Part shown: positions 9,999 to 53,547 of the stretch, piece by piece
Position numbering within the stretch: the first letter of the stretch is position 1
Layout: every line of letters starts with the position of its first letter
From: Actinomycetota bacterium
GTDB lineage: Bacteria; Actinomycetota; Thermoleophilia; Solirubrobacterales; 70-9
Assembly (NCBI GenBank): GCA_018268675.1
Contig: JAFDWB010000082.1
Span: forward strand, 1 to 64,000
Reading direction: 5' to 3'
DNA: 64,000 nucleotides
Position numbers and translations under genes: made by a program
Notes under the pieces: generated by a model
Database searches by the model: none
Told to the model about the DNA's origin: nothing
What the model saw: only the letters and a program-made list of their open reading frames with translations

Positions 9999-10042
9999 GG
10001 GCGGGGGCGGCGGCTGGCGCCCCGTGCCGGCCGGCGCCCGAC

Positions 10043-10095
10043 GGCGCGGCCATCCCCCTCATGGTCCGGCTGGTTATGAGGGGGATGGCCGCGCC
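10043..10095. terminator. Perfect 20-bp inverted repeat after the marR gene
   Basis: The arm at 10043-10062 (starts GGCGCGGCC) is the exact reverse complement of 10076-10095, with a 13-nt loop. No T run follows. Its position 45 nt after the marR stop suggests a terminator. Positions 9999-10335 hold no gene: they contain this stem, the repeat at 10133, and the hairpin at 10227. Confidence 0.75.
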
Positions 10096-10132
10096 TTGGC
10101 CCGCGCCGGCCCGGCCGTCCCGTCAAAGAGAC

Positions 10133-24246: not shown

Positions 24247-24319
24247 GCAGGACGAGCCGATGGACCCCTCGCTCACGAACAGCGTGGAGGTTCGTTCGGG
24301 GTCCATCGGCTCGTCCTGC
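24247..24319. terminator. Perfect 22-bp inverted repeat with an inner stem
   Basis: Positions 24247-24268 (starts GCAGGACGAG) are the exact reverse complement of 24298-24319. The 29-nt loop contains a further ACGAAC/GTTCGT stem, so the DNA could form a branched hairpin or cruciform. It lies between nadK and recN on the same strand. The recN -10 box TAAACC starts at 24320, immediately after the stem. Confidence 0.75.
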
Positions 24320-30867: not shown

Positions 30868-30943
30868 GCCAAGGGACGGTGCGCGCTCCGTCGGCAACTG
30901 CGCGTATCTCGTGCGTCTTCCCCATGCCCAAATGTTGATGGGC
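30868..30943 (+). repeat. GCCAAGGGACGG element, copy 2
   Basis: Partner of 10133-10209, beginning with the same 16 nt and ending in TTGATGGGC. A GGGGCC/GGCCCC stem lies just upstream (about 30821-30846) after the pyrG stop. The end of this copy is taken into the left arm of the hairpin at 30934. The gap 30815-31171 contains no supported gene; it is filled by this element, that hairpin, and the palindrome at 31012. Confidence 0.65.
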
Positions 30944-30982
30944 CGAAAACCGCTGATATGGAGCGGTTTTCGGCCCATCAAC
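30934..30982. terminator. Perfect 21-bp hairpin downstream of pyrG
   Basis: Positions 30934-30954 (starts GTTGATGGGCC) are the exact reverse complement of 30962-30982, with the 7-nt loop GATATGG. The run of A's on the left and T's on the right lies inside the stem, so there is no U tail. Probably the terminator of the tlyA-to-pyrG region. Confidence 0.75.
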
Positions 30983-35306: not shown

Positions 35307-36029
35307 ATGGCGGGATCTACGGTCAAGACCGAAGCGGTTGTCTTGCGCAGCATCCGATACGCGGAGGCTGACCGGATCCTGCACATGTACTCGCCGACGC
35401 TGGGGCGCTTCGGGGCGATCGCGAAGGGCGCCCGCAAGCCGAAATCGCGCTTCGGCGGCCGGCTCGAGCCGTTCTTCCGCCTCGACCTCGTCCTCCACCA
35501 GGGCCGCAGCGAGCTGATGACCGTCACCAGCGCCACCACGCTTGACGGCTACCCGCGCCTGCGCTCCGAGGGCGCCGCGATCGGCTGCGGCGCCCGCGCC
35601 TGCGACGCCGTGCTGCGCCTGCTCGACGCCGCCGAACCGAACCTCCCCGCCTACAACCTGCTCTGCCGCTACCTGGCGCTGCTCGACCAGCCCGGGCAGC
35701 CGCGGGCGATCGGCCTCGAGGTGGCGCTCTCGTTCCGGCTCAAGCTGGCGCTGGTCGCGGGCTTCGCCCCCGAGCTCGCCTCCTGCGCCGACTGTGGCGA
35801 GGCCGAGCACCTGGCGGGCTTCTCGGGCGCCGCCGGGGGCGTCGTCTGCGCCAGCTGCGAGGCCGGGTCGTTCCCCCTCTCCGAGGAAGCCCACCGCTTC
35901 ATGGTCGACGCCCTGGCGAAGCCGCTGGCCGAGGCGCCGGCCGCCGAGACGCCCGCCCTGCGCCAGGTCGAGCGCGCCGTCGGCGAGACCCTCGAGCACC
36001 ATGCCCACGTCCAACTTCGCGCCGCCTGA
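35307..36029 (+). CDS. DNA repair protein RecO
   Basis: A 240-residue recombination mediator that helps load RecA. The N-terminal OB domain has KTEAVVLRSIRYAEADRILH and RFGAIAKGARKPKSRFGGRL. The C-terminal helical domain contains a zinc site CADCGEAEH...CASCEAGSF. The start is ATG 35307. The stop codon lies inside the left arm of the 122-nt palindromic element. Confidence 0.92.
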   Translation: MAGSTVKTEAVVLRSIRYAEADRILHMYSPTLGRFGAIAKGARKPKSRFGGRLEPFFRLDLVLHQGRSELMTVTSATTLDGYPRLRSEGAAIGCGARACDAVLRLLDAAEPNLPAYNLLCRYLALLDQPGQPRAIGLEVALSFRLKLALVAGFAPELASCADCGEAEHLAGFSGAAGGVVCASCEAGSFPLSEEAHRFMVDALAKPLAEAPAAETPALRQVERAVGETLEHHAHVQLRAA

Positions 36030-36146
36030 GCCCGAAAACCGGCGCATCTCGCGGTCTTCGGTCGGGCTCCTCGGGTCACGCACTGGAGTGCGCTCCCCTC
36101 GTCGCCCTCCCTGCATCCCACGACCTGCTTGGTTTTCGGGCTCAGG
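36025..36146. repeat. 122-nt palindromic element, copy A (recO end)
   Basis: CCTGAGCCCGAAAACC (36025-36040) is the exact reverse complement of 36131-36146. The 90-nt loop contains GGGTCACGCACTG (from 36073) and an inner stem CGCAC/GTGCG. The element at 53426-53547 has the same total length and the same loop length, with a similar loop but different arm sequences that are again complementary to each other. The recO stop lies in the left arm. Confidence 0.85.
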
Positions 36147-52326: not shown

Positions 52327-53429
52327 GCGGCGACCCGAAGGTGCAGAACCTGGCGAAGATCCTGGTCGGCTACTCGACCAAGGTGAAGGAGGGCGAGGTC
52401 GTCTCGATCGACGGCGAGAGCGCCGCCGCGCCGCTGCTGCTCGCGGTCTACGAGGAGGTCCTGAAGGCGGGCGGCAACCCGGTGCTGAACGTCGCCCTCG
52501 ACGGCCAGATCGCCGCCTACTTCAAGCACGCCAGCGACAAGCAGCTGGAATGGATCTCGCCGTTCGCCGAGTGGATGGTCGACAACGCCGACGTGCGGAT
52601 CGCGATCGGCGCGACGACCAACACGCGCGAGCTCTCGGCGGTGCCGCCGGAGCGCCAGACCCTGCGCCAGTCGGTCACCGGGGACCTGATGCAGCGGGCG
52701 ATGAAGCGGAGCGCCGAGGGCGACTTCCGCTGGGTGTACACGATCTTCCCGACCAGCGCCTACGCCTCCGAGGCGGAGATGAGCCTTGCCGACTACGAAG
52801 ACTTCTACTACGCGGCGTGCCTGGCCGACGACGGCGACCCGCTGTCGACCTGGAAGCGCGCCTCGGAGGAGACCGAACGCCTCGCCGCCTGGATCGAGGG
52901 GCACGAGGAGGTGCGGATCACCGCCCCCGGCACCGACATCAAACTCGGCATCGCCGGGCGGCACTTCATCCCCTGCGTCGGCGACCACAACATGCCCGAC
53001 GGCGAGTTCTTCACCGGCCCGATCGAGGACGCCACCGAAGGCGAGGTGAGCTTCCACCTGCCGGCGGTGATCGGCGGCCGCGAGGTCTCCCGCGTCCGCC
53101 TCAGATTCGAGGCGGGCAAGGTGGTCGACGCGAGCGCCGAACGTGGCGAGGAGTTCCTGGTCGCCCAGCTCGACACCGACGCCGGCGCCCGCACCCTCGG
53201 GGAGCTCGGCATCGGCACCAACTACGGGATCGATCGCGGCACCCGCGAGGTCCTCCTCGACGAGAAGATCGGCGGCACGATCCACATGGCCTTCGGCCAG
53301 GCCTACCCCGAGTCCGGCGGCACCAACGAGTCCGCCGTCCACACCGATCTCGTCTGCGACCTCCGCCTCGGGGGCAAGCTGGAAGTCGACGGCGTCGTCA
53401 TGCAGGAAGACGGCCGCTTCATCGTCTGA
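52323..53429 (+). CDS. M29 family aminopeptidase (AmpS/AmpT-like)
   Basis: A 368-residue thermophilic-type metalloaminopeptidase. The N-terminal domain begins VQNLAKILVGYSTKVKEGEV. The C-terminal catalytic part has NMPDGEFFTGPIEDATEGEV (a Glu ligand), SAERGEEFL, ELGIGTNYGI, the His in GGTIHMAFGQAYPESGG and the Asp in VHTDLVCDLR, matching the M29 metal ligands. The ATG overlaps the pdxT stop (ATGA). The insertion of this gene between pdxT and yebC departs from the commonest actinobacterial order. The stop codon is inside a 122-nt palindromic element. Confidence 0.92.
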   Translation: MSGDPKVQNLAKILVGYSTKVKEGEVVSIDGESAAAPLLLAVYEEVLKAGGNPVLNVALDGQIAAYFKHASDKQLEWISPFAEWMVDNADVRIAIGATTNTRELSAVPPERQTLRQSVTGDLMQRAMKRSAEGDFRWVYTIFPTSAYASEAEMSLADYEDFYYAACLADDGDPLSTWKRASEETERLAAWIEGHEEVRITAPGTDIKLGIAGRHFIPCVGDHNMPDGEFFTGPIEDATEGEVSFHLPAVIGGREVSRVRLRFEAGKVVDASAERGEEFLVAQLDTDAGARTLGELGIGTNYGIDRGTREVLLDEKIGGTIHMAFGQAYPESGGTNESAVHTDLVCDLRLGGKLEVDGVVMQEDGRFIV

Positions 53430-53547
53430 CGCCCCTGGACCGGCGCGCTTCGGCGTCCTCGGGGCGCTCGGCTGCGGGTCACGCACTGAGGTGCGCTCCC
53501 TTGCCTCGCTACCTGCGTCCTTGAATCGCTTGGTCCAGGCGCGTCAG
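53426..53547. repeat. 122-nt palindromic element, copy B (aminopeptidase end)
   Basis: CTGACGCCCCTGGACC (53426-53441) is complementary to 53532-53547 at 15 of 16 positions. The 90-nt loop carries GGGTCACGCACTG from 53476 and the inner stem CGCAC/GTGCG. It resembles the loop at 36041-36130. The left arm contains the aminopeptidase stop and the right arm contains the stop of the convergent gene at 53544. Confidence 0.85.

Follow-up and report, generated by a model that had tools for sequence, protein, structure and literature searches.

Two palindromic elements of 122 nucleotides (nt) lie in the window, the 64,000-nt stretch of a Solirubrobacterales genome analysed here (contig JAFDWB010000082.1, assembly GCA_018268675.1). 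They are members of a class-wide family of hairpin repeats, apparently unnamed until now, in a single class of soil bacteria, the Thermoleophilia. Members of this family fold into rods, keep their internal loops invariant, change the two sides of their arms in concert, move between loci and lie at gene ends. The family is best called one of the palindromic mobile repeats. We lean, with some reserve, towards an analogue of YPAL and REPIN: a palindromic mobile element that is non-autonomous, read as a folded single strand and moved by an enzyme acting in trans. A mechanism for its movement, and any benefit to the host, are suggested below from these features.

Both elements are placed directly behind genes. 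Copy 1 (36025–36146; E 3.4e-22) occupies the gap between recO and a dGTPase-like HD gene, and copy 2 (53426–53547; E 2.3e-20) separates an M29 peptidase gene from a convergent one. As the original prediction held, each is 122 nt long, with 90 nt separating its arms. The outer arms of copy 1 (36025–36040 and 36131–36146) are complementary at 16 of 16 positions, and those of copy 2 (53426–53441 and 53532–53547) at 15 of 16. The arms differ between copies, cross-copy pairing reaching only 7/16 and 8/16. The stop codons also fall where they had been placed. The left arm of copy 1 includes the recO stop (TGA, 36027–36029), RecO ending at 36029; the left arm of copy 2 includes the stop of the M29 gene (TGA, 53427–53429), which ends at 53429, and the right arm that of the convergent gene (TCA, 53544–53546). 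The interval between the arms had been described as a 90-nt loop. Its length is correct, but it is not a loop: it continues the same rod, with small internal loops, and each copy folds as one continuous rod. Compared with shuffled sequence, folding is far stronger on both strands and, in either copy, strongest on the minus strand, which carries the GA motifs (copy 1, z −10.6; copy 2, z −5.5).

The two copies share a core, GGGTCACGCACTGNNGTGCGCTCCC, which occurs twice in the window at up to three mismatches and not at all in 100 shuffles. At the same stringency the core is found at seven places in the source genome, and by covariance model the genome has 14 to 18 copies, with 18 places at E ≤ 1, among them shorter ones that differ in the tip. 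The family is present in each of the 12 genomes of the genus, with 8 to 91 model matches per genome, and in 38 of 50 genomes at the family level. The original prediction was to be given up if no further copies existed or if their arms did not pair; copies are present in the source genome and in related ones, their arms pair, and the prediction stands. In the genus, elements measure about 122 nt; elsewhere in the class they can reach about 170 nt. Copies with different tips have in common a module, AAGGACGCAGGGAGC ... GCGACCGAGGAC. Of 121 genomes of the order, 28 contain the exact module pattern (reversed control, 0), and a second, module-based model has matches in 122 of 249 Thermoleophilia genomes, the class-wide per-genome counts being lower bounds drawn from the best 15 scored places in each. 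Across the phylum, 7 of 396 genomes contain the exact pattern, all of them Thermoleophilia. In some 358 Actinomycetota genomes outside the class it is absent, at the level of the pattern only. Where carriers belong to named records, these are metagenome assemblies of Solirubrobacterales and Thermoleophilia. Rfam gives nothing relevant at gathering or relaxed thresholds, viral, phage and plasmid collections give no match, and a literature search on repeats in Solirubrobacterales found no description among the papers searched, in keeping with the earlier remark that no named element fits.

The stems vary in sequence but keep their pairing. Covariation is very strong both class-wide and in the genus. 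In a class-wide set of 95 copies, standard pairs fill 96.4% of the paired cells, and both sides change in 20 of 22 pairs. The covariation score of this set is 0.583, against 0.141 for shuffled and at most 0.073 for slid partners; in the genus set it is 0.350 against 0.108 shuffled. Because the alignment is fitted to the model, pairing is tested most fairly on the outer arms, since these are unpaired in the model. Arms score a mean of 14.1 with their own partner and 7.1 with the partner from another copy. Most positions that are invariant in 97% or more of the copies are unpaired bases of the internal loops (A, GA, GCA, GA / GA, GA). The fixed part thus consists of purine-rich unpaired internal loops (AAGGACGCAGGGAGC / GCGACCGAGGAC), and strong covariation is seen in the stems between them, in the tip and in the outer arms. 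In the window the module lies on the minus strand. Its 5′ half is at 36108–36119 in copy 1 (GGGATGCAGGGA; class consensus AAGGACGCAGGGA) and at 53510–53521 in copy 2 (AGGACGCAGGTA), and its 3′ half at 36054–36061 (CCGAAGAC; class consensus CCGAGGAC) and 53456–53463 (CCGAGGAC), respectively. The apical stem-loop, also on the minus strand, spans 36073–36097 in copy 1 (sense strand GGGTCACGCACTGGAGTGCGCTCCC), where it is diagnostic of the genus subfamily, and 53476–53500 in copy 2 (sense strand GGGTCACGCACTGAGGTGCGCTCCC). As the unpaired bases are fixed and the stems are free to vary, something appears to read the folded single strand, either RNA or single-stranded DNA (ssDNA). The reader is probably a trans-acting enzyme that recognizes the tandem-GA internal loops. 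A stronger version of this reading, which we entertain only tentatively, is that of a mobile class defined by structure: an invariant ladder of tandem-GA loops would be read by an enzyme specific to Thermoleophilia, and the arms would be free and copied from each other.

The arms are rewritten in pairs. Different species of the genus keep the element at orthologous gene ends with arms that differ, stop codon included; in one example TGA in one species corresponds to TAG in another, and the opposite arm is altered to match. Between orthologous copies, 171 of 259 changed arm pairs are double-sided and still Watson–Crick, 60 are one-sided and 28 are other changes. The cores of these copies are mostly 87–99% identical where measurable. 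In one comparison (L042 with L083) all seven changes are double and none is single. Some arm changes are blocks of several pairs without intermediates. At the recO–dgt site, the left arm of copy 1 looks like an exact copy of the right arm, and the corresponding arm of a sister species (G011) is an imperfect one. Arms that differ and still pair had been ascribed to selection for structure or to a copying process that rewrites both arms, and the further copies, with pairing kept through so many double changes, bear out that observation. Hairpins can arise and persist through template switching (PMC8794818), and the block-wise changes are of the kind it would give. Palindromes might even be made and kept solely by replication template switching at gene ends, with no function at the level of the element; unrelated perfect hairpins are found at such sites (at recO in G009, and at 24247–24319 and 30934–30982 in the window), which would favour this. 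However, copies across the class have a core sequence in common, and their internal mismatches are retained rather than repaired. Rewriting alone would not leave the internal loops unpaired and invariant, as they are observed to be; since these loops are not repaired, selection must also act. As a complete account, template switching is refuted by the invariant unpaired module, and the absence of any element-level function is very improbable. As a contributor to arm change, template switching is likely.

The unit also moves. Near-identical copies, matching at up to 116 of 122 positions, stand at unrelated loci, and their identity stops at CTGAGGCG...CGCCTCAG. When the flanks of two copies of the source genome (L006 and L007) are joined, they match uninterrupted empty sites in sister species, and the same holds for two further copies (L049 and L096). 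At recO–dgt, three species of the genus have the element and most others an empty site; one genome (G004) has a short, remnant-like hairpin there. Near-identical copies, sharp ends and empty sister sites together show mobility. The copies are short, non-coding and numerous, have inverted ends and are variably present at orthologous sites, which are among the marks of miniature inverted-repeat transposable elements in the broad sense. Copies can also adjoin one another. At L045 a full copy and a half copy lie 57 nt apart, consistent with recombination between copies, and other families of the class have copies in tandem or at close spacing, with distances of about 75 to 480 nt (L318 in G050, L332 in G055 and L311 in G037).

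Placement at gene ends is pronounced and oriented. In the genus, 80 of 95 copies lie downstream of a gene on the GGGTCAC strand, the stop codon mostly within about 8 nt of the arm end; the gene calls behind this statistic come from a simple codon model, and copies at orthologous sites are not independent of each other. Between tandem genes the orientations stand at 36:12 in the genus and, with the same orientation preferred, at 43:6 in the class set. In one family the hairpin spans the whole gap from stop to next start, and two copies are placed after a tRNA-like 3′ end. Hairpins right behind stop codons, often between convergent genes, in a window that holds other long perfect hairpins at gene ends, might be intrinsic (bidirectional) terminators that share sequence by chance. 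Yet copies are also found between co-directional genes inside essential operons (S10–L3, S18–L9, ATP synthase beta–epsilon and pyruvate dehydrogenase (PDH) E1 alpha–beta), which argues against a simple terminator. Invariant internal loops are not needed for termination. Moreover, the mismatches of copies between tandem genes are predominantly A·C on the mRNA strand, weakening the transcript hairpin (18:2 in the genus and 32:2 class-wide). Termination as the common explanation is quite improbable.

The same mismatches were considered as a guide to the working strand. Class-wide, wobble-type arm mismatches outside the model are G·T on the GA strand in 159 cases and A·C in 31, an excess that would mark the GA strand as the functional one. 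That argument is weakened by context. In the genus, after subtraction by hand of one fixed G·U pair per copy, the ratio of G·T to A·C is about 18:2 for tandem contexts, 10:10 for convergent ones and 1:2 for copies in the opposite orientation, which is rare. Because the excess is limited to tandem genes, selection against mRNA hairpins explains the bias at least as well.

Several results weigh against a mobile element read as a folded strand and moved in trans. One is this confinement of the G·T excess to tandem genes and its loss in convergent contexts. No target-site duplication, a further mark of miniature inverted-repeat elements, is found: the longest flanking direct repeat has a mean length of 1.39, against 1.31 for swapped flanks (28 copies). 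No recurrent transposase or other neighbour protein stands beside the copies, and Y1 transposases are found in 0 of the 19 genomes of the family that were searched, high-copy ones included. Reverse transcriptases (RTs) occur in only 4 of these 19; Rfam assigns those that it recognizes to group II introns, and none has a strong element match beside it. Finally, copies are retained over the long term at the same places, sometimes in essential operons, which suggests some benefit to the host. Concerning the RTs, group II introns with RT are present in the two highest-copy genomes of the genus (L412 in G010 and L413 in G008), with no adjoining element match. A group II intron RT was accordingly set aside as the mover of the element.

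Host benefit could be the primary property. A protein specific to Thermoleophilia would then bind the folded RNA or ssDNA and control mRNA 3′ ends, intercistronic processing or antisense transcription, with spread being secondary. Such a role would agree with the class-wide invariance of the internal loops, with pairing maintained at orthologous loci and with the orientation bias between tandem genes. It would also agree with the occupation of the same junctions in different families and genera (S18–L9 in L318 and L334; PDH in L295, L297 and L357). Half of the sampled genomes of the class, however, have no match, many sites are empty in sister species in which the genes are still present, and the number of model matches ranges from 8 to 91 within one genus. 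No single gene function is marked by the copies. A structure that chiefly serves the host is unlikely, although it deserves more weight than the terminator.

The mobile-element reading leads to the following proposal. (i) An enzyme supplied in trans would recognize the folded strand, as ssDNA or RNA, through the tandem-GA internal loops and move the element. (ii) Insertion or survival would be restricted to gene ends, where the arms can provide a stop codon (CC-TGA-GG). (iii) Afterwards, template switching between the arms, together with selection, would keep the pairing while the arm sequence drifts.

Of the described repeats compared here, YPAL and REPIN come closest in their way of working. 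YPAL inserts shortly after stop codons. Like the present element, YPAL (RU-2) is a short (~168 bp) palindromic intergenic repeat that is foldable as RNA and contains internal inverted repeats, has empty and filled sites and lacks A+T-rich TA termini (PMC2229807). In contrast, YPAL makes target-site duplications of 3–26 bp (PMC2229807), of which the present element has none. In the present family it is the internal loops that are invariant, and arms vary from copy to copy with pairing kept; the host taxa are unrelated, and the element, which has no Rfam match, is set apart from YPAL by description. ERIC (IRU, RU-1) is likewise a dispersed, mobile, intergenic and co-transcribed imperfect palindrome, of 127 bp (PMC2229807). 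Whereas ERIC enters TA with a target-site duplication and has 7-bp terminal inverted repeats, no such signature, and no match in Rfam, is seen here. REP and REPIN sequences (GTAG- and CGTC-tagged) resemble the element as multi-copy palindromes at gene ends that fold as ssDNA and show compensatory changes (PMC3116915, PMC3733652). In REPINs, however, the outer REPs are conserved around a spacer that varies, and a RAYT is required. The present element is the reverse, conserved inside and variable outside, and no Y1 transposase is found in the 19 genomes of the family searched. A REP/REPIN tag was considered and rejected: CGTC is not terminal but part of the module, on the other strand, and the outer arms are variable. 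Integron attC sites are imperfect palindromes at the stop codon of a gene, with an orientation bias relative to it, and in these respects the element is alike. It differs in having no R boxes and no cassette arrays, its neighbours being housekeeping operons, and RYYYAAC and GTTRRRY occur at both ends in 0 of 190 copies. That a known single-strand system is at work, either RAYT-moved REP/REPIN or integron-type attC, would explain a strand-biased palindrome near stop codons and the compensatory changes reported for REPIN (PMC3116915); in view of the reversed architecture, the missing attC boxes and the absence of Y1_Tnp from 19 of 19 family genomes, it is the least probable of the explanations considered.

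The family adds a widespread repeat to a whole bacterial class and accounts for unannotated intercistronic palindromes within essential operons. Its hundreds of copies, with their orthologous and empty sites, form a natural data set. These data bear on how palindromic repeats spread without a known transposase, and on how much RNA-like covariation is due to template switching and how much to selection.

Composite variants of the element exist at four loci (L046, L054, L066 and L069), where an extra hairpin and a GCGAGCGCG...GAATTCCTT-like sequence take the place of the right half. Other palindromes occur in the same genomes. A second family is represented at 30934–30982 of the window, where TTGATGGGCCGAAAA...TTTTCGGCCCATCAA flanks a short stem that is variable between copies yet paired; more copies are present in L058 and L377, and two in L059. 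In G011 the L007 site has a hairpin of this second family; in G000 it has the element and then its leftover right half (GGCCCATCAACC). Long intergenic inverted repeats outside the element family lie at 24247–24319 (22/22, with a 29-nt loop) and 10034–10104 (29 nt at 86%) of the window. At the recO–dgt site of G009 (L134), a perfect inverted repeat of some 25 bp, unrelated to the element, starts directly at the recO stop codon, where relatives have the element or nothing.
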